From: a virus
IMG/VR virus record: IMGVR_UViG_3300025154_000246
Location: 1 to 37,775 of that record
Strand: one strand, 5' to 3'
Length of the DNA stretch: 37,775 bases
Shown piece by piece: positions 282 through 20,930 of the stretch. The notes beneath the pieces are model-generated. The model saw only the letters and a program-made list of their open reading frames with translations, searched no databases and was not told the DNA's origin. Every line of letters begins with the position of its first letter. Positions within the stretch are counted from its first letter, which is position 1. The position numbers were made by a program, and so were the translations under genes.

Positions 282-773
282 ATGGCCGCTACAAATGCAA
301 AAACGATCATCTTGATCGGACGAGGAATCCGGAAAGAGCGAGTGGCAAATGCCGCTATCACTCCGGGACATCTGGTTGAAGTTATGACCACTGGTAAACT
401 GCGAGTTCATGCCACTGCTGGTGGACATGCACAGAAGGCTTTTGCTATCGAAGACGATATGCAGGGTAAGACAATTGCCGATGCTTACGCCGCCAATACT
501 CGCGTACAGTATGAGATCATGGAGCGTGGGGCTGAGGTTAATGCTATTATTGCCAACGGCCAGAATATCGCTATCGGTGACCCCCTGCAGTCTGCTGGCG
601 ATGGCACTTTGGCCAAATACACGGCTCCAACTGAATCAGTATGGGATGATTCTAGCGCCGATACCACCCCGATTGCAGACAACTGTATTGTTGCTTATGC
701 AATGGCAGCTTGTGATATGTCCGGATCGTCTGCTGCTGATCCGACTGGTCGTTGCCCCGTAGAAATCGCGTAA
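282..773 (+). CDS. Head decoration / capsid cement-like protein
   Basis: A 163-residue protein starting at an ATG with GGAGG at 270-274. It is rich in Ala, Gly, Thr and Ile and reads as an all-beta protein (TPGHLVEVMTTGKLRVHATAG, NIAIGDPLQSAGDGTLAKYT). The IAIGDPL...G.G.L.KYT pattern and the rising use of short beta strands resemble small decoration or capsid-stabilising proteins such as the DUF2190/lambda gpD-type group. It sits directly before the major capsid gene, the usual position of such proteins. No signal peptide or membrane segment is seen. It could alternatively be a head fibre subunit; the assignment rests on composition and position. Confidence 0.6.
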   Translation: MAATNAKTIILIGRGIRKERVANAAITPGHLVEVMTTGKLRVHATAGGHAQKAFAIEDDMQGKTIADAYAANTRVQYEIMERGAEVNAIIANGQNIAIGDPLQSAGDGTLAKYTAPTESVWDDSSADTTPIADNCIVAYAMAACDMSGSSAADPTGRCPVEIA

Positions 774-833: not shown

Positions 834-1907
834 ATGAATAAAACGTATGGAAATGCTGGGATTGAATTTATCCAGAATGGTGCCGGGTCTGGCCCCGTAT
901 CGCAGAAACTGATGGCTGGCGGAATGTCGGTTGGTCTGCTCAAACCCTGGATTGGCGCTGATGGAAATCCATATGCCGTTGTCTATAATAGTGGACAGCC
1001 GCAGGTAGTTCGAGTTAACGCCGCTACTCTCCGCAAAGACGAATGGAAGGAACTCGACTCTGCAGTCATGTTTGCTGCCCAGGAAAGGCTTGTTGGCGTA
1101 GCTGATCTATATTCCCGGAATCTGGTATATCGGATTGGCAATGGTCTTGGGAAAACCGTTCTTGAGTATGAGGACATCTCCGAGTTGACCGCCGCCGAAC
1201 TGACCATGGATGCGGTTACTCCGAGCAAGCGCGACCGGCCCGAAACAACCTTGAAGTATTTGCCACTGCCCATCGTTCATAAAGATTTTCAGTATAATAT
1301 CCGGACCCTGACCGCCTCCCGGAACGGCAGCACTCCTCTGGATACCACCACGGCCACCATGGCCGCTCGGGTTGTTGCAGAGAAGATCGAGGAGATGCTG
1401 TTTGCTGGTGTTTCTTCCTATGCTTACGGTGGCGGAACGATTTATGGCTACTTAGACCACCCCCAGGCCAATGATGTCACCTTGACGGCAAATTGGGACG
1501 CCTCCGGCAAGACTGGTGAGCAGATTCTTGATGACGTTCGGGAAATGAAACAGGCTTCCATCGATTCCCATTTCTACGGTCCCTGGGTTCTATATGTGCC
1601 GACTTCGTATGAGACTGTTCTCGACGATGATTACAAGGCTGAATCCGACAAGACCATTCGTCAGCGCATCCTGGAAATCGCCGGCATTACCGAGGTCAAA
1701 GTCGTTGATAAACTGACCGCTGATAACGTTATCCTGGTCCAGATGACTTCGGATGTTGTTCGGATGGTCGAAGGTCTGCCCCTTACCACTGTTGAGTGGA
1801 CTGAGGGTGGTGGGATGACTACGAATTACAAGGTCATGACGATCATGGTGCCGCAGATTCGGGCTGATCAGAATGGCAATTGTGGTGTAACGATCCTGAA
1901 GGCTTAA
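834..1907 (+). CDS. Major capsid protein (HK97-fold, encapsulin-like family)
   Basis: A 357-residue protein with a strong ribosome site (GGAGGAA, 824-830). It forms the head shell. After a variable N-terminus comes a helix with LRKDEWKELDSAV and then a long E-loop/P-domain region. The C-terminal third carries the pattern seen in HK97-fold shells of the encapsulin-like type: a helix with IRQRILEIAGITEVKVVDKL, then NVILVQMTSDVVRMVEGLPLTT, a Gly-rich EGGGMTTNYKV turn and VPQIRADQNGNCGV at the end. No N-terminal delta domain or protease site is obvious. Placed between the decoration gene and the neck genes, it is the only shell candidate in the window. A hairpin follows the stop codon, consistent with high separate expression. 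Confidence 0.88.
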   Translation: MNKTYGNAGIEFIQNGAGSGPVSQKLMAGGMSVGLLKPWIGADGNPYAVVYNSGQPQVVRVNAATLRKDEWKELDSAVMFAAQERLVGVADLYSRNLVYRIGNGLGKTVLEYEDISELTAAELTMDAVTPSKRDRPETTLKYLPLPIVHKDFQYNIRTLTASRNGSTPLDTTTATMAARVVAEKIEEMLFAGVSSYAYGGGTIYGYLDHPQANDVTLTANWDASGKTGEQILDDVREMKQASIDSHFYGPWVLYVPTSYETVLDDDYKAESDKTIRQRILEIAGITEVKVVDKLTADNVILVQMTSDVVRMVEGLPLTTVEWTEGGGMTTNYKVMTIMVPQIRADQNGNCGVTILKA

Positions 1908-1997: not shown

Positions 1998-2471
1998 ATG
2001 GACCTTTTAAAATACAGAAAGAAAGCGAAAACAGGCCGGCACTGCTTCAAGTTTGATGGAAAGAGGTATTCGGTAGTGCCAGGCGATGTAGTTGAAGTTG
2101 AGGAATCTGCTCTTGGTTCTTTTGTCGAGGATTATGATTCTTTGACTCCGGTAACCAAAAGGACCAGTTTGCCGATAGCAAAAGAGGCAGATTTAACCGA
2201 TACATCCAGCGGTCTGGCTTTGGTTAAAGTATCCAGGTGGATGTACAACATTATCAATCATGACAATCCCGGCAAGCCTTTGAATGACAAGCCAATGAAA
2301 AAGGCTGAGGCTGAAAAGATTATTGGTGAGATGCGAGAAATCAAAAAAGAACTCAGTGAACTCGACTGGGATGCTCTGATCGGTATTATGGAAGAGGAAG
2401 AAATTGAGATCCTCGAAGAGTATGAAACCGAAGATCAACTGCGTGAAGCAATCCTGATCGCCCGTGGCTGA
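1998..2471 (+). CDS. Hypothetical acidic protein downstream of the capsid
   Basis: A 157-residue protein with AAGGAGG at 1985-1991. The first 35 residues form a basic beta-rich segment (LLKYRKKAKTGRHCFKFDGK, then YSVVPGDVVEVEE), a type seen in small phage head-associated proteins. The rest is charged and helical, ending in a strongly acidic helix (EEEEIEILEEYETEDQLREAI). No family is recognised. The gene overlaps the next by eight bases and follows a hairpin, so it is the first gene of the segment carrying the sugar cassette. A head-completion or assembly role is possible from position only. Confidence 0.75.
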   Translation: MDLLKYRKKAKTGRHCFKFDGKRYSVVPGDVVEVEESALGSFVEDYDSLTPVTKRTSLPIAKEADLTDTSSGLALVKVSRWMYNIINHDNPGKPLNDKPMKKAEAEKIIGEMREIKKELSELDWDALIGIMEEEEIEILEEYETEDQLREAILIARG

Positions 2472-3129
2472 TTTCTGGGAAATCCCGGCATTATGGCCAG
2501 GGTCAACTGTCTTCATTATCGGTGGTGGAGTCAGTCTTTTAAAACAGGATTTATCACTCATCCATAATCACCGAGTGGTTGGAGTGAATCAGGCATACAA
2601 ACTCGGCCCTTGGATTGACGCCTGCTGGTTCGGGGATAAGGGATGGTACGAAGAGAACTTGCCGGCAATAAGTAAATATGGTGGGTTGATTGCTACTTGT
2701 GCAGCCACCCTTCCAGAACAAAGAAAAGCCAGGGTGAAATATGTTGGTAGAAGCAAACCATCTGGAATTGAGGTCAAAAGAAGAAATGGCATTGCCTGGA
2801 ATGGCAACTCCGGTGCTTCGGCGATCAATTTTGCCTACTGGCTTGGAGCAAAAACTGTCGTCCTACTCGGCTTCGATATGCAGAACCCGGATGATCCAAA
2901 GGATACGCAGTCTCATTGGCACAACGACTATGAAGTCAGGTTCGACAAAAAAGCGGGAAGACTTCATGACCCATACCCAAAGTTTATGAAGTACTGGCCA
3001 GCAATAGCCAGGGATGCAAATCAGGTAGGATTGAAAATTATAAACGCAACAATTGGCGGCGCTCTTGAAACATTTGAACGAAAACCATTAGAGGCCATAT
3101 GTCAGGATTTATTAGCCCATACGTTGTAA
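2464..3129 (+). CDS. Rossmann-fold MptE/DUF115-like protein
   Basis: A 221-residue protein starting at a GTG inside the end of the previous gene. It contains FIIGGGVSLL near the N-terminus (a Rossmann glycine loop), VVGVNQAYKLGPWIDACWFGD, then GNSGASAINFAYWLGAKTVVLLGFDM and an aromatic/His segment SHWHNDYEVRF. This combination (G-x-G-x-S-L, N-x-x-x...D, N-x-G-x-x-A, L-L-G-F-D) marks the family annotated as DUF115 or 6-hydroxymethylpterin diphosphokinase MptE-like, which in phages and bacterial surface loci accompanies glycosyltransferases and sugar modification of proteins. The true reaction in phages is not established. It overlaps the acyltransferase gene by 31 bases and opens the sugar cassette. 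Confidence 0.75.
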   Translation: MADFWEIPALWPGSTVFIIGGGVSLLKQDLSLIHNHRVVGVNQAYKLGPWIDACWFGDKGWYEENLPAISKYGGLIATCAATLPEQRKARVKYVGRSKPSGIEVKRRNGIAWNGNSGASAINFAYWLGAKTVVLLGFDMQNPDDPKDTQSHWHNDYEVRFDKKAGRLHDPYPKFMKYWPAIARDANQVGLKIINATIGGALETFERKPLEAICQDLLAHTL

Positions 3130-3596
3130 TTGATCGAGGGGTCAAGTTAGCTCTGACTACTAAAGTCTTCCATTTTGTTGTCCTGAGAGACAACGTGGAG
3201 ATTGGTGAGAACTCGATTGTCGGCCATAATGTAGTGATTGAAAGAGATACCAAGATCGGCAACAATACGACGATTCAGTCTCAATGCCACATTACAGCAG
3301 AAGCAATCATTGGGGATAATGTTTTCTTTGGTCCGGGAGTAGTAATGACCAATGAGAAGAATATTGCAAATCAGGGTCGGGCAGTTCCAAAGATCGAGCG
3401 GGCTGTTATTGGAAATGGCGCTCGGATTGGAGCTGGTGCTGTGCTTGCCCCTGGTGTCAATATCGGGGAAAATGCTTTTGTTCATGCCAATGCTTTTGTT
3501 ACGAAAGATATCCCGGCTGGTGAAATTTGGGGAACACCTCATGGAAAGAGCAGGGCGGTCAAGATTGGAACAGTGCCGGAGAGTGAATGGCTATGA
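3099..3596 (+). CDS. Hexapeptide-repeat (left-handed beta helix) acyltransferase
   Basis: A 165-residue protein built mostly from [LIV]-G-x4 hexapeptide turns: VEIGENSIVGHNVVIER, TKIGNNTTIQSQCHI, AIIGDNVFFGPGVV, then AVIGNGARIGAGAVLAPGV and IGENAFVHANAFVTKD. An IPAGEIWGTPHGKSR segment closes the helix, as in sugar O- or N-acetyltransferases (WbbJ/PglD-like) where the IPAG...GxPA motif ends the repeat. Members are trimeric and transfer acetyl groups, usually from acetyl-CoA, to sugars or nucleotide sugars. The loop TNEKNIANQGR probably borders the active site, but a definite catalytic His cannot be chosen (candidates in GHNVV and CHI). It lies between the MptE-like and glycosyltransferase genes, which supports sugar modification as its job. 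Confidence 0.88.
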   Translation: MSGFISPYVVIDRGVKLALTTKVFHFVVLRDNVEIGENSIVGHNVVIERDTKIGNNTTIQSQCHITAEAIIGDNVFFGPGVVMTNEKNIANQGRAVPKIERAVIGNGARIGAGAVLAPGVNIGENAFVHANAFVTKDIPAGEIWGTPHGKSRAVKIGTVPESEWL

Positions 3597-4222
3597 TTGA
3601 TCAGATCCCCTCAATAGTCGTTTGCCTTCGCTCTGGCGGTGATTATTACCCAGGCCATGTAAGAGCACTCGCAAGACAGATTGAACGCAATGCGACGATT
3701 CCTTATCGTTTTGTTTGCTATACAGATCAGGTTGATGAACTCCTGGAAATAGAGACCGTCGAACTTGAAAAGAATTATCCCGGATGGTGGTCTTGTGTCG
3801 AGCTTTGGAAACACCAGGGGCCGACAATTGCCATTGGCTTGGACACGTTGGTCCTGAAGAACATCGATGACCTCCTAAAGATGGTCTGCCATATTCCGGA
3901 AGAGGATTTCTTTTTGTTGGATTCGTTCTTTCATCCCGGTGAGTTTATAAATGGAATGCAGGCTTGGAATGGTGATTGGTCTTGGTTGTATGACGAGTTT
4001 GACTTTGAGAAGGAATCAAAACTCCATCGTGGTGATGAAAATTACCAGATAGACGCTCTGCTGATTAAAGGCATTGATATTACGGCAATTCAGGAATACT
4101 TCGAAGGGATTTGTAGTTATAAGCGCCATGTCCGAAAAGGCCTTGTAAAAGATCCAGGAATCATCATTTTTCATGGAGATCCTAAGCCATGGCGGACGAA
4201 TCTGTGGAGGTTAGTGGAATGA
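3587..4222 (+). CDS. Glycosyltransferase-like protein, first paralogue
   Basis: A 211-residue soluble protein. The start at 3587 has GGAG five bases upstream; an ATG at 3593 that overlaps the preceding stop is the alternative. The layout is that of a GT-A-type transferase: SIVVCLRSGGDYYPGHVRAL at the N-terminus, ATIPYRFVCYTD, NYPGWWSCVELW, then GPTIAIGLDTLVLKNIDDLL at the usual nucleotide-sugar/metal site, AWNGDWSWLYDEFD and FHGDPKPW at the end. The site expected to be D-x-D reads L-D-T-L, as in some GT8-like and DUF5672-type proteins. It is clearly homologous to the next gene. Substrate is unknown; position suggests glycosylation of a virion or host-surface target. Confidence 0.78.
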   Translation: MAMIDQIPSIVVCLRSGGDYYPGHVRALARQIERNATIPYRFVCYTDQVDELLEIETVELEKNYPGWWSCVELWKHQGPTIAIGLDTLVLKNIDDLLKMVCHIPEEDFFLLDSFFHPGEFINGMQAWNGDWSWLYDEFDFEKESKLHRGDENYQIDALLIKGIDITAIQEYFEGICSYKRHVRKGLVKDPGIIIFHGDPKPWRTNLWRLVE

Positions 4223-4866
4223 GGTCAACAATGCCGGTATTTGCCTGTGTACTGAAGCTTGGGGGAGATTATATAGAAGAGCACGTCCGACAAATACCGG
4301 CGCAGGTACGAGCAAATACGACGATTCCTTATGACTTCATTTGTTTTACAGATTCCAAGGAAAAGATTGATGGCGTTGTCTCTATTCCCTTGATCAATAA
4401 CTGGCCTGGCTGGTGGTCTGTACCTGAGGTATTCCGGAATGTCGGCCCGACAGTTGTGACTGGGATTGACACGATGATCAGAGGGAATATTGACGACCTG
4501 TTCAAGGTGGCTACTGACTCCACCGAAAAAGACTTTTGGATGATTCGTTCTTTCCGGCCACCAGTTAGAACTATCTCAGGGATTATGGCCTGGAATGGGG
4601 ATTGGTCCTGGCTGTATGAACAATTCGATTATGAGAAATTTTCCAAGCAGCTTCGTGGGGAAGAGGATTATACGAACGCCAAACTGAGAGAGAAAAGAGT
4701 TATTCCGAAAATATTACAAGACGCTTTCCCGGAGAGCATCTATTCATACAAGCGGCACTGTTCTGGTGGGATATCCTCGAACTGTAAAGTTCTTGTTTTC
4801 CATGGCAAACCCAGGCCGTTTGAAGTTCCAACCCTTTGGCAAGAAATCGTAAAGGAGCATGCATGA
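4219..4866 (+). CDS. Glycosyltransferase-like protein, second paralogue
   Basis: A 215-residue product from the ATG at 4219, chosen because it overlaps the preceding stop as ATGA and has GGAGG at 4206-4210; an in-frame ATG at 4189 lacks such support. It shares every block with the previous protein: LGGDY, NTTIPYDFICFTD, NWPGWWSVPEVFR, GPTVVTGIDTMIRGNIDDLF, AWNGDWSWLYEQFDYEK, IYSYKRH and VFHGKPRP. The pair therefore arose by tandem duplication and then diverged. As in its partner, the metal-binding D-x-D is replaced by I-D-T. Two transferases in a row could add successive sugars, or one may act on a different acceptor. Confidence 0.78.
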   Translation: MRSTMPVFACVLKLGGDYIEEHVRQIPAQVRANTTIPYDFICFTDSKEKIDGVVSIPLINNWPGWWSVPEVFRNVGPTVVTGIDTMIRGNIDDLFKVATDSTEKDFWMIRSFRPPVRTISGIMAWNGDWSWLYEQFDYEKFSKQLRGEEDYTNAKLREKRVIPKILQDAFPESIYSYKRHCSGGISSNCKVLVFHGKPRPFEVPTLWQEIVKEHA

Positions 4867-5540
4867 AAGATCCGATTTTAGTAGTTGGTTGCGCCCGTTC
4901 TGGAACGTCTATGACGGCAGGCATGCTTAATATCTGTGGGGCTTTTGGTGGGGAGATGTATGGCCCTAGTATTGATGCCCAGAAGGGGATGTTCGAGAAC
5001 TGCAAACTCCGAAACGATATTGTAAAACCATATCTGAAGAAGATTGGCGCTGATCCAATGGGCCAGAAGCCACTCCCGAACAATCGCCAGGTCTTTGAAG
5101 TTTCCCAGCCGGAAGCTGATCACTGGAGAGATATCGTTCAACGGCTTATGATGTCTCAGGGGTATAAAAGTGGTGAATGGTTTTGTAAATGCACCAAGGC
5201 TGCTGGAATGTGGTACATGTGGCATAAAGCCTTTCCAAAAGCGAAGTGGATCATCATTCACCGGAACCACAAAGATATTATTAGGAGTTGCCAATTAACG
5301 CGATTCATGCGAGCATACCGGGATGAAGCCGGCTGGCAGTCTTGGATAGATCAGCACGAGAAAAGATTCGCAGAAATGCATACTGCCAAGCTTGATATTT
5401 TCGGCTTCTGGCCGTCTCGTCTTTGTGCTGGAGATTGGGATTACGCCAGGCAGCTGATAGAGAGCGTTGGGTTGGTGTTTAATGAACCGATGGTCAAGGC
5501 ATTTATCGAGCCAAAATGGTTCAATGAGGAGGGCAAGTAA
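4863..5540 (+). CDS. PAPS-dependent sulfotransferase family protein
   Basis: A 225-residue product from ATG 4863, which overlaps the previous stop as ATGA and has AGGAG just upstream; the longer in-frame ATG at 4836 would overlap more and has no site. Residues 9-16 are GCARSGTS, the 5'-phosphosulfate-binding loop of sulfotransferases. Residues 133-142 (HRNHKDIIRS) give the R-x7-S 3'-phosphate-binding motif (R134, S142). The length fits the family. Such enzymes move sulfate from PAPS to a hydroxyl or amino group on sugars, proteins or small molecules. As last gene of the sugar cassette it may sulfate the glycan made by its neighbours. The acceptor cannot be read from sequence. Confidence 0.87.
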   Translation: MKDPILVVGCARSGTSMTAGMLNICGAFGGEMYGPSIDAQKGMFENCKLRNDIVKPYLKKIGADPMGQKPLPNNRQVFEVSQPEADHWRDIVQRLMMSQGYKSGEWFCKCTKAAGMWYMWHKAFPKAKWIIIHRNHKDIIRSCQLTRFMRAYRDEAGWQSWIDQHEKRFAEMHTAKLDIFGFWPSRLCAGDWDYARQLIESVGLVFNEPMVKAFIEPKWFNEEGK

Positions 5541-5908
5541 TGGCTCGCGTAACTGATATCGAAGTCTTTGCCATTATCGATACCACTTTGACCGATATTA
5601 ATGTTTTTATCAATACAGCAAATATGATGGTAACTTCCTGGCTGGAAACGGCTGGGTTGACTGATGAAACCTTGAAGGAGATTGAGAGATATCTTGCTGC
5701 CCATGCATTGAGCGTGCAGGATCAGAGAGTGAAATCAGTTGGCGTTGATGTCCTTTCCGAATCTTATCAGGGACAGTGGGGGATGGGCCTGAATGGCACT
5801 AGTTATGGCCAGATGGCAATCCTTTTGGATACTTCCGGGACTCTCGGAAAGATAGCCAAAAACGGGTATAGCAAATCTGCCTCTCTAAATACGATTGGGT
5901 ATCACTGA
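5540..5908 (+). CDS. Head-tail connector (gp6-like adaptor)
   Basis: A 122-residue protein coupled to the sulfotransferase gene by TAATG. The N-terminal half is helical (TDIEVFAIIDTTLTDINVFINTA, WLETAGLTDETLKEIERYLAAHAL) and matches the small helical adaptor that docks onto the portal, HK97 gp6 / SPP1 gp15 type, in which an AH-rich helix ends with RYLAAHxL. The second half is Gly/Ser-rich (GQWGMGLNGTSYGQMAILLD), again as in these adaptors. It is first of a run of four neck genes. Confidence 0.78.
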   Translation: MARVTDIEVFAIIDTTLTDINVFINTANMMVTSWLETAGLTDETLKEIERYLAAHALSVQDQRVKSVGVDVLSESYQGQWGMGLNGTSYGQMAILLDTSGTLGKIAKNGYSKSASLNTIGYH

Positions 5909-6264
5909 TGAACCTCGGAAAGTTCTTCAATCAGAAAGCTGTTTACTGGGGAGCACCAACTCCGGATGGGTATGGTGGATATACTTATGGCGAGCCGGTT
6001 GAGGTAGATGTTCGCTGGACTGTAAAGCAAGAGAAGTTTTTGACTTCTCAAGGTGCTGGAAATGGAGTTGAAGAAATCCTTTCCAGGGTTGTAGTTCTTT
6101 CTGAAACCGATTTTGATATGAAAGGTAGAATGGCTTTGATGTTATTGGCGGATGTCGATAGTAGCGGAACTCCAGAAACAGAAGATGCACTGACCATCGA
6201 AGGTTTTGAGAAGATCCCGATAATCAAAGCGGATCAATTTTTACGGAAAGCATTTTTGGTATGA
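5908..6264 (+). CDS. Head-closure protein (SPP1 gp16-like)
   Basis: A 118-residue beta-rich protein that begins on the A of the previous stop codon. Features are an N-terminal KAVYWGAPTPDGYGGYTYGEPVEVDVRW, typical for the phage head-tail joining family (SPP1 gp16 / phi-type head closure) where a conserved P-D-G-x-G-x-x-x...V-x-x-R-W leads into a beta barrel, then SRVVVLSETDFDMKGRMALM and IPIIKADQFLRKAFL. It would seal the connector after packaging and offer the tail-docking surface. Assignment by motif and order is strong. Confidence 0.78.
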   Translation: MNLGKFFNQKAVYWGAPTPDGYGGYTYGEPVEVDVRWTVKQEKFLTSQGAGNGVEEILSRVVVLSETDFDMKGRMALMLLADVDSSGTPETEDALTIEGFEKIPIIKADQFLRKAFLV

Positions 6265-6725
6265 GCGAACTGAAAGGATTATCGCTGGTTTTGAAGAATC
6301 TGAACAAAGCCATTTCAGATATCGAACTCCATACCAAGGAAGGTTTGACCGAAGCTGCTCTGGTAGTAAAATACGATTCTGTTAAAGGAACACCAATTGA
6401 CCTTGGTAATCTTAGAAATAGCGCATTCATTCTAGTAACTGATCAACGAGAAGATAATCCGACACCAAACTTTACAGGATCTGATGCCGGTAAAATGGCA
6501 AGTGATCATTCAAGTCAAATATCTGAAGGAAGAGGCATTGTAAATAAAGGAAAACATAAATTCAATGCGATAGTAGGATATACAGCTAATTATGCTTTAT
6601 GGGTTCACGAGATGCCGTCGCATTACAATTTCAATTCTGGTTCAAATAAGTTTCTTGAAAAGGCGTTGTTCAAAAATAAAAATCGAATTCTTCAGATCCT
6701 GGTTAAGCACGCAAAACTGAAATAA
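6261..6725 (+). CDS. HK97 gp10-like tail-completion protein
   Basis: A 154-residue protein overlapping the previous gene by four bases. It has an N-terminal helix (LKGLSLVLKNLNKAISDIELHTKEGLTEAALVVKYDSVKGTPIDLGNLRNSAF), the arrangement of the HK97 gp10 family: a long helix, then T-P-x-D-x-G-x-L-R-x-S. The C-terminal half has VGYTANYALWVHEMPSHYNF and FLEKALF, also family hallmarks (Y-A-x-x-V-H-E). It acts at the head-tail joint. Confidence is high for the family. Confidence 0.85.
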   Translation: MSELKGLSLVLKNLNKAISDIELHTKEGLTEAALVVKYDSVKGTPIDLGNLRNSAFILVTDQREDNPTPNFTGSDAGKMASDHSSQISEGRGIVNKGKHKFNAIVGYTANYALWVHEMPSHYNFNSGSNKFLEKALFKNKNRILQILVKHAKLK

Positions 6726-6726
6726 T

Positions 6727-7128
6727 ATGAATTCTCCTTCTAAAGACATAAAAGATTACCTACTGGATAAATCGGACGATTCCAATTCAATCCTTGATTT
6801 TACTTTCGGAACAAATCTTTTCATTTCTCTTTTACCAGAAACTCCCGTATTGGCCACAGCCATATTCGATACATCAGGAATGACCCCCGATCCAACCAAT
6901 ATCAGGAATCCCACTATTCAGATATTGGTTAGAGGGAAGGTTGGTGGATATGAAGCGGCTTGGGCAAAGATGGAAGCAATCATGGCTGAACTTCATGCTT
7001 TAGCAAATACAACGATAAACAGTACACTTTACATATTGATTTGGAAATTAACAGAACCATTTCATGTTGGGAATGATACACAAGGAAGGCCGATTTTTTC
7101 GTGCAATCTGCGGATCAAAAGGGCGTAA
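6727..7128 (+). CDS. Tail terminator-like protein
   Basis: A 133-residue protein starting at ATG 6727, one base after the preceding stop. It has SPSKDIKDYLLDKSDDSNSI at the N-terminus, a central IRNPTIQILVRGKVGGYEAAW and a C-terminal NSTLYILIWKLTEPFHVGNDTQGRPIFSCNLRIKR. The order helix, P-x-x-Q-I-x-V-R, Y..a...a..i...L, then I-x-x-x-x-P-x-x-x-G-x-D-x-x-G-R-x-x-x-S-x-N fits the minor-capsid/tail-terminator family (lambda gpU, SPP1 gp17 group). Placement immediately before the tail tube gene agrees. Confidence 0.8.
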   Translation: MNSPSKDIKDYLLDKSDDSNSILDFTFGTNLFISLLPETPVLATAIFDTSGMTPDPTNIRNPTIQILVRGKVGGYEAAWAKMEAIMAELHALANTTINSTLYILIWKLTEPFHVGNDTQGRPIFSCNLRIKRA

Positions 7129-7152: not shown

Positions 7153-7566
7153 ATGTCAAATGCGGTATCTGGTGTAGGAACGACCTTCAAACGGTCGAAC
7201 ATGTTGAGCAGCGCGACCTTTGCAGCAATTGCAGAGATCAACAGCATTAAAGGCCCAGACAAGAAACGGAATGTTATTGATGTTACCAGCCTGGATTCGA
7301 CTGGTGGATATCGGGAGTTCATTGCTGCCTTCAGGGATGGCGGTCAGGTAGTAATGAACTTTACCCGGGATGGTTATGACGACATGAATGATGACTTCGA
7401 GATTGAAACTCTCGTTGATTATCAGATCGTCTTCCCTGGATCAATTGGTACATTCGAGTTCTCCGGCCTTGTAACCGACATCGGCAATTCTATTCCATTG
7501 GACGATAAGATTACTATGTCAGTAACGATCAAAGTCAGCGGCCAGAGTGGATTCCAGTCCACCTAA
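7153..7566 (+). CDS. Major tail tube protein
   Basis: A 137-residue protein with a very good ribosome site (TAGGAGGACATT). The beta-sandwich pattern IAEINSIKGPDKKRNVIDVTSLDSTGGYREFIAAFRDGGQVVMNF is a recognised signature of siphovirus tail tube proteins (I-x-x-I-x-G-P, V-T-x-x-D-S/T, G-x-x-E-F-I-x-G-x-x-D-G-G). A second half with YQIVFPGSIGTFEFSGLVTDIGNSIPLDDKITMSVTIKVSG completes the fold. It polymerises into the hexameric tail tube. Its place before the tail chaperone and tape measure genes is canonical. Confidence 0.9.
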   Translation: MSNAVSGVGTTFKRSNMLSSATFAAIAEINSIKGPDKKRNVIDVTSLDSTGGYREFIAAFRDGGQVVMNFTRDGYDDMNDDFEIETLVDYQIVFPGSIGTFEFSGLVTDIGNSIPLDDKITMSVTIKVSGQSGFQST

Positions 7567-19769: not shown

Positions 19770-20291
19770 ATGAAAACCAGTTCTATTTTAACAATATTGG
19801 CGGTTGCTCTGATTGCTTTAATTATCATTGCAATGACTTCCAGTTGTTCTAGTGATAATGATAACAAGCAGACTGGGCCAGGGGATATCACTGCAAAGTA
19901 TGATCCATTTGCTCAAGATGATACCGATAAAGCTATTGAGCTAGATATCGATGCTGAGGAACTCGAAGGAGTTGACTGGGTAGAGGCGCAACCAGTTCCT
20001 TATTCTGGTGCTGGTGAATTTGCAGCAGGCGTAAAGAGCACTGGGACATATGGGGTGCGGAATGGTAATCGTCAAGCATTCCGTACTTTCCCTATGTTTA
20101 GAGGGGGCACTGCTATCGTTGTGTTTTCTGATCGACCGCGAGAAGGATACCGAGTTCAATTAGGTAGGGCAAACCGAATCAGCAGCGGCCCCCATAATGG
20201 CTTTGTTGTAAAGAATTCCAAAGATAAAACCAATACATTTGCCCATTCACCGTATGGTAGGCATCCATCTCGGATAACTTATTACTTTTAA
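19770..20291 (+). CDS. Putative lipoprotein or membrane-anchored secreted protein
   Basis: A 173-residue protein with a typical signal region (residues 6-23, ILTILAVALIALIIIAMTSS) followed by C-S-S. The T-S-S-C site is a weak lipobox because the -3 position is not Leu or Val, so a simple anchor is also possible. The mature part is acidic at first (DDTDKAIELDIDAEELEGVD) and then has RTFPMFRGGTAIVVFSDRPR. It ends in ITYYF, an aromatic end of the kind found in outer-membrane or baseplate-binding proteins. It could act in superinfection exclusion or tail-receptor masking, but this is inference from type and position. Confidence 0.65.
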   Translation: MKTSSILTILAVALIALIIIAMTSSCSSDNDNKQTGPGDITAKYDPFAQDDTDKAIELDIDAEELEGVDWVEAQPVPYSGAGEFAAGVKSTGTYGVRNGNRQAFRTFPMFRGGTAIVVFSDRPREGYRVQLGRANRISSGPHNGFVVKNSKDKTNTFAHSPYGRHPSRITYYF

Positions 20292-20303
20292 GGAGGAACC
20301 AGT

Positions 20304-20930
20304 ATGAAAAGAATTGCTGCAGTAATTTTAGTTTCATTGTCTGTATTATTGGCTGGGTGTGCTCCACATCAGTTTGCCGCTACGGATGGTGCTGTCCAGG
20401 TCGAACTGAACAAGGAACACTCTCGTACGGCCTGCTATCAATCTCTGGCGATGAATGGTCCGGACTACTCCAAACTGAGCGACATGGCCATTGTCATGAT
20501 CGAGCAGCAGAAGGCAACCGCGCAACTCGTCGGGGCATTGACTGGCAAGCAGATTGACCCCTGCGGTGGGGGGACGAACTTGAACGATGTCTTAATCGCT
20601 GACTCCAACAATCGTAATAGGAGCGTCCAGGTTCTCGGAGGCGGAGTGTTGAATGCGGTGAAGTGGGTAGCAGGGGCATGGGCTGCAACCGAGATTGTTG
20701 ATAGTATAGGCAAGAATGCCGGGAATAGTACAACGAGCAATACGGAAGGTGGTGATGTGTCGGTAACTAATTCAAGGACCAACTCAGAGACTAATACCGA
20801 TGTAACCAATACCGGTGAGGAAGGCACAGCGACTACCAGCGGCAGTTTTGATGCAACTACTCCAGTAGCTGATCCCGTAGCCCCTGGCGTAGATATCGTT
20901 GATACTCCGGTCGTAGTAACCGATAACTAA
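20304..20930 (+). CDS. Lipoprotein with canonical lipobox
   Basis: A 208-residue protein with a very strong ribosome site (TAAGGAGGAACC). The signal is KRIAAVILVSLSVLLAGC, an ideal L-A-G-C lipobox with Cys19. The mature part contains a helix YSKLSDMAIVMIEQQKATAQ, a second hydrophobic segment (LGGGVLNAVKWVAGAWAATE) and a Ser/Thr/Asn-rich tail (SNTEGGDVSVTNSRTNSETN) ending in VVVTDN. Phages of Gram-negative hosts carry lipoproteins near lysis genes as outer-membrane spanins or superinfection-exclusion factors; the long Ser/Thr tail does not match a typical o-spanin. TAATG couples it to the next gene. Confidence 0.78.
   Translation: MKRIAAVILVSLSVLLAGCAPHQFAATDGAVQVELNKEHSRTACYQSLAMNGPDYSKLSDMAIVMIEQQKATAQLVGALTGKQIDPCGGGTNLNDVLIADSNNRNRSVQVLGGGVLNAVKWVAGAWAATEIVDSIGKNAGNSTTSNTEGGDVSVTNSRTNSETNTDVTNTGEEGTATTSGSFDATTPVADPVAPGVDIVDTPVVVTDN

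Follow-up and report, generated by a model that had tools for sequence, protein, structure and literature searches.

A variable gene slot beside the capsid gene of uncultivated phages, with a putative set of glycan and sulfate transferases

The window analyzed here is the whole 37,775 nt stretch of DNA held as IMG/VR virus record IMGVR_UViG_3300025154_000246, a siphovirus-like fragment from an uncultivated phage. The element in question is a cassette of five genes on the plus strand (2464-5540; coordinates of the cassette genes count the stop codons), which lies between the gene of the major capsid protein (MCP, 834..1907) and that of a DUF4054 head-tail connector (5540..5908) and is continuous with the late head genes. 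A reading made from the letters alone (the sequence-only reading) had described five overlapping open reading frames next to the capsid genes; all five were found, their overlaps were confirmed and the position was borne out, except that one gene for a 157-residue protein (1998..2471) intervenes between the MCP gene and the cassette.

The five cassette proteins

The first gene (2464..3129) encodes a DUF115 protein, a Maf/CstII-like transferase, which matches PHROG 4603 ('alpha-2,3-sialyltransferase') with E 1.3e-34. Its match to PF01973 (MptE-like; E 0.0044, 17.2 bits) is below the cut-off of 34.6, so the protein is Maf-like by fold and not a member of PF01973. An AlphaFold2 model from an alignment of 54 sequences reached a predicted local distance difference test score (pLDDT) of 97. 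Alignment of this model with VIA gave Maf (5mu5) with Z 15.1 over 190 residues, CstII with 12.3 and MptE/HPPK with 10.4, on a background in which unrelated-looking rows begin near Z 5. Foldseek alone returned no match with E < 0.001 for this model, and the fold was obtained from VIA-align. The second gene (3099..3596) encodes a hexapeptide sugar acetyltransferase, assigned by PF00132 (Hexapep) with E 1.9e-28, above the curated cut-off, and nearest to the NeuD/PglB/VioB acetyltransferases (TIGR03570, E 1.2e-21, below the cut-off of that family).

The third and fourth genes encode GT8-like glycosyltransferases (GTs), GTa (3587..4222) and GTb (4219..4866), which are paralogues with 42% identity and both match PHROG 1962 'glycosyltransferase' (E 1.4e-24 and E 5e-28, respectively). 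The start of GTb was corrected to the ATG at 4219, behind GGAGG and in an ATGA overlap with GTa. The GTb model (pLDDT 95.7) matched glycogenin in Foldseek with E 3.1e-7, probability 1.00 and a template modelling score of 0.63 (the GT-A fold of GT8), and a profile search supports the GT8/glycogenin assignment with E 1.8e-5.

The fifth gene encodes a sulfotransferase (ST, 4863..5540) of the type that uses 3'-phosphoadenosine-5'-phosphosulfate (PAPS). Its start was likewise corrected, to the ATG at 4863, behind AGGAG and in an ATGA overlap with GTb. The protein matches Sulfotransfer_3 (PF13469; E 1.6e-9, with 38.8 bits where the cut-off is 27) and carries the 5'-phosphosulfate loop GxxRSGTS and the 3'-phosphate site R..S, with G9, R12, S13, R134 and S142 invariant among 22 divergent members. 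This full signature places the predicted protein among the PAPS-type sulfotransferases.

The enzyme types of the cassette proteins are thus well supported. All five classes given in the sequence-only reading stand, with the correction that the first protein is nearest to Maf and CstII, and the pterin kinase MptE comes behind them. Structure prediction, which that reading had proposed as a check, gave Maf/CstII and glycogenin folds for the DUF115-like and GTb models.

The slot in related phages and its PAPS supply

Related loci were collected by a scan with a single ST sequence (31 viral loci), by a scan with an ST alignment (best 80 of 209 candidates used) and, to avoid circularity, by sampling on the MCP only (best 80 of 530 relatives). 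Slot counts were taken from profile hits in non-redundant loci. Seventy of the ST-sampled loci extend far enough downstream; in 68 of these the connector gene follows the ST gene within 700 nt, and in 52 within 60 nt. The MCP-sampled set includes 41 loci in which the stretch from MCP to connector is covered. A DUF115/Maf-like gene is present in the slot of all 41; because the sample consists of the nearer MCP relatives, at about 50% identity and above, this figure should not be carried over to the MCP family at large. The ST is present in 31 of the 41, and in 30 of these 31 at most 15 nt separate it from the connector gene (175 nt in the other). Slot length in this set ranges from 1.0 to 9.6 kb. 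The slot has a DUF115 gene at one end, usually an ST gene at the other, and a freely changing middle. The cassette is not a one-off: the hypervariable slot is widespread, and the window has one of its alleles. With its fixed ends and changing middle the slot resembles capsule and O-antigen loci. The conserved bracket provides a sequence rule for locating such loci in any virome.

The middle genes of other alleles include genes for sugar-nucleotide synthesis (WecB above its cut-off; a PseB-like dehydratase and a fucose-synthase-like epimerase below theirs). Further middle genes were assigned by Pfam and NCBIfam to GT2, GT11, GT9, FkbM and other methyltransferases, radical SAM proteins, transketolase-like proteins and extra sulfotransferases. 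Three loci (L113, L116 and L117) have MCPs 67-70% identical to that of the window, yet carry different middles. Radical SAM (6/128) and transketolase/E1-like (4/128) genes among the 128 middle genes make unusual sugar chemistry possible. Two slots that lack the ST carry other genes, for an SLT transglycosylase (L139, 4872-5483) and for a laminin-G/lectin-like protein of 667 residues (L172, 15482-17482).

The site is empty in MaInes and StAshley, two Brevundimonas phages (MCP about 40% identical), and in four viral contigs near them, where the MCP gene is followed by a short gap and then by DUF4054, the 118-residue protein, neck and connector, with no DUF115, GT or ST gene. Because these relatives keep the order with nothing inserted, the cassette is an insertion into a conserved head-neck gene order, as had been proposed. 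The ratio of nonsynonymous to synonymous substitutions against close relatives is about 0.005-0.12, lowest for the ST, which indicates purifying selection on the cassette genes. This, together with the same arrangement in dozens of divergent contigs, argues that the cassette is not a product of chance. Three single STs (those of the window and of L029, and the second one of L014) matched nothing in 50,697 phage records, a set that thus yielded no cultured phage carrying this ST. As to the host, the genome scan returned only three contigs from metagenome-assembled genomes (MAGs; Deltaproteobacteria, Bacteroidota, Clostridium sp.), possibly phage contigs caught in binning, and no host is claimed.

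APS (adenosine 5'-phosphosulfate) kinase makes PAPS. In L014 a short APS kinase gene stands directly behind the ST gene, and short forms are found beside the ST in further loci too. A full-length CysC is encoded outside the slot on the contig of L113 (L185, 4796-5356, minus strand), the slot of which has an ST. For all 10 kinases tested, PF01583 (APS_kinase) was the best family and above cut-off. In the alignment the short kinases keep the P-loop, DGDxxR and FxxxGRxxN and differ at the C-terminus. Of the 44 non-redundant loci found by scanning with the kinase alignment, 36 carry an ST no more than 300 nt away, two end too early for a decision, and six have full flanks and no ST. As the kinase seeds came from ST-bearing loci, the 36/44 speaks for this kinase subfamily and not for all viral cysC genes. 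Within that scope, the adjoining kinase genes tie the ST to PAPS. Short viral APS kinase genes with no ST within 4 kb occur in L224, L232, L238, L240, L241 and L243. A search of the window for an APS kinase found none. The 'complete' set of the sequence-only reading did not hold, and this phage has to obtain donor sugars and PAPS from its host, or from genes that lie beyond the fragment.

Viral cysC genes have been read as parts of assimilatory sulfate reduction (PMC10914622, PMC9529941). The kinases described here share the APS kinase family with these auxiliary metabolic genes, including the short forms, of which 109-135 residues have been modelled (PMC9529941), but differ in that the kinase gene adjoins a sulfotransferase and a head connector gene. 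For the ST-adjoining subfamily, supply of PAPS for sulfation is a better fit than assimilatory sulfate reduction. This suggests that some viral 'cysC' genes may serve sulfation instead of sulfur assimilation, and gives a testable other reading of the short viral cysC genes.

Proposed function and alternatives

The cassette is probably (with a probability of about 0.6) one allele of a modular phage locus for a sulfated glycan, acting in the cytoplasm and most likely on virion proteins. The Maf/CstII-like enzyme, to judge from its fold and its constancy, would put a sugar on a head, neck or tail protein. The two glycogenin-like GTs, the class of which is shown, would then lengthen the glycan in an order that is presumed, and the hexapeptide enzyme may acetylate one of the sugars. 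Finally the ST, classed by its motifs and with PAPS use backed by the adjoining kinase genes of relatives, would add sulfate. Exchange of the middle genes would make related phages differ in the surface chemistry of their particles. What the phage would gain is a matter of speculation; likely candidates are evasion of host factors that sense glycans or capsids, or altered adsorption and charge. Candidate acceptors encoded on the plus strand of the window are the head decoration protein (282..773; PHROG 766, E 3.3e-17) and the MCP (PF19774, E 1.9e-25; PHROG 771, E 9.3e-30), which flank the cassette, and the major tail protein (7153..7566; PHROG 158, E 2e-16). The gene of the 157-residue protein, which has a counterpart in nearly all relatives, shows 65-67% identity to close relatives in which the MCP is 95-99% identical; it may evolve faster or be exchanged, and its product is a possible acceptor.

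The virion is favored as the presumed target by the position of the cassette, by the Maf-like fold, and by the lack of membrane proteins and integrases. A single marginal transmembrane-like segment was found in 10 of 444 cassette proteins and in none of the window's cassette. Integrase (PF00589) was found in 0 of 27 contigs and in 14 of 14 controls, which disfavors lysogenic conversion, with the limit that the contigs may be incomplete. A soluble route of protein modification has a precedent, since Maf enzymes are described as O-glycosylating flagellin on Ser/Thr and as sharing a CstII-like domain (PMC11339370).

Several findings weigh against this interpretation. The ST is missing from 10 of the 41 MCP-sampled loci, and in L183 (9983-10690), a MAG contig labelled Bacteroidota, it stands alone in the slot; a search of the whole 5.8 Mb assembly gave no DUF115 match, so the core GT is not required for an ST to act. 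The DxD motif of the GTs is not intact: it reads GLD (GTa) or GID (GTb) and lacks the first Asp, which is kept in 25 of 42 family members and replaced by G in 17. The short APS kinases are without the canonical RDxKGLYKKA lid and are below the TIGR00455 cut-off (64.2 against 138.7 for L014). Modification of a virion protein is inferred, and the acceptors named above are candidates.

The strongest rival is a late change of the host surface (lipopolysaccharide, capsule or S-layer precursors) that blocks superinfection or keeps released virions off debris. We consider it unlikely, although the changing middles are like those of O-antigen or capsule loci and cytoplasmic GTs are able to work on lipid-linked or nucleotide-sugar precursors. 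CstII, moreover, acts on lipooligosaccharide. The cassette, however, lies within the late structural block, and its core enzyme is structurally closest to the protein glycosyltransferase Maf. Unlike Gtr-type serotype conversion, the cassettes include no flippase, polymerase or GtrA/GtrC-like membrane protein, and the absence of integrase from the 27 contigs counts in the same direction.

Less probable still is that the ST sulfates a protein side chain (e.g. tyrosine) of virion or host directly, independent of the glycan genes. Among solved structures, a profile search puts protein-tyrosine sulfotransferases nearest to the ST, at a weak E of 0.0011, the L183 slot holds the ST alone, and the 157-residue neighbor in the window has an acidic tyrosine site, EILEEYETEDQ. 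Against this, the ST occurs together with DUF115 in 31 of the 31 ST-bearing MCP-sampled loci. The 157-residue protein was considered as an acidic-tyrosine substrate and rejected, as the site is kept only in close relatives.

That the genes hypermodify the DNA of the phage by adding a sulfated glycan is very improbable. Phage GT clusters for DNA hypermodification are known (Pyle 2024, as cited in PMC12619734), and matches to the thymidylate synthase family (PF00303) were found in 4 of 27 contigs, but the other 23, that of the window included, gave none, and the cassette lies beside the head genes, away from the replication block. A Tet/JBP profile matched neither the contigs nor the controls, so this search was uninformative. 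Equally remote is a mere cargo site (moron hot spot) that gathers unrelated genes with no joint function: a few slots hold other genes, such as those of L139 and L172, but DUF115 is constant, the ST is nearly always last when present, most of the Pfam-named middle genes are glycan-type enzymes, and APS kinase is linked to the ST.

In its broader form the sulfated-glycan reading describes a large uncultivated lineage with a 'virion coat locus' between capsid and neck genes, made up of a Maf-like opener, a usual ST closer, sometimes its own PAPS kinase, and a changing middle that would give each phage a different sulfated glycan, so that part of viral cysC would serve particle decoration. The odds of this wider claim we put at about even. 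If true, these phages would have a capsule-like, switchable, sulfated surface chemistry, with a bearing on adsorption, on escape from capsid- or glycan-sensing defenses and on survival of particles in the environment.

Known systems and other features of the window

Virion glycosylation coded by phages is already known, and a sulfated switchable locus was not found in the literature searched. The glycosyltransferases of mycobacteriophages Che8, Corndog and Myrna modify capsid and tail-tube proteins (Freeman et al. 2023, via PMC12363180 and PMC12619734) and so act on virion proteins, as is proposed here; those two papers mention neither a sulfotransferase nor a Maf-like core, nor a variable slot set in a bracket. 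The sugars described for an Acinetobacter cystovirus belong to an envelope taken from the host and have no bearing here. With Maf (PF01973) and the GT42 enzymes CstI/CstII the first cassette protein shares a fold over nearly its whole length, but it is predicted to be a single domain of 221 residues, and the likeness is one of modelled fold. Distant relatives of DUF115 and GTb are pmgO and pmgQ of P1 and hdmB and hdmD of P7, each pair in one late operon, which differ in not lying between MCP and connector and in having no sulfotransferase annotated there. P1 pmgO and pmgQ were nonessential in a CRISPR interference screen (PMC10695390), which, with their place in a late operon, fits an accessory modification better than an assembly factor. 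The cultured Citrobacter phage phiNP (L186, 4469-5654) has, close to the gene of the small terminase, an 'alpha-2,3-sialyltransferase' gene and a GTb relative arranged in tandem, and Pseudomonas phage PAJU2 (L034) has a DUF115 relative between the head-closure and tail-terminator genes.

The sulfotransferases of OM43 phages and of Synechococcus phage S-SRM01 belong to PF13469 like that of the window, but the available part of PMC10580990 connects them with neither a glycan cassette nor the capsid block, and states the function of phage sulfotransferases to be unclear. The slot offers a candidate answer to this question. A search of the open-licence literature turned up no account of an exchangeable glycan slot next to a capsid gene that is closed by a sulfotransferase and supplied by an APS kinase; this is not proof of absence.

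At the right border of the slot the DUF4054 connector gene is assigned by PF13262 (E 4.4e-5) and PHROG 302, and is followed by the genes of a 118-residue protein, a neck protein and a head-tail connector (5908..7128; PHROG 5, PHROG 2595 and synteny), an order that is conserved after the slot. These genes and that of the major tail protein are also on the plus strand, and the tape-measure gene follows downstream of them. A DNA-level search of the first 25 kb of the window against phages gave no match. The reverse-strand part of the window has SbcCD-, exonuclease-, UvsX-, clamp-loader- and DNA-polymerase-like genes, and since the DNA-polymerase-like frame runs off the end of the fragment, the genome is incomplete. 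Two adjacent genes at 19770-20930 have transmembrane-like segments and no Pfam match, and may encode lysis proteins.

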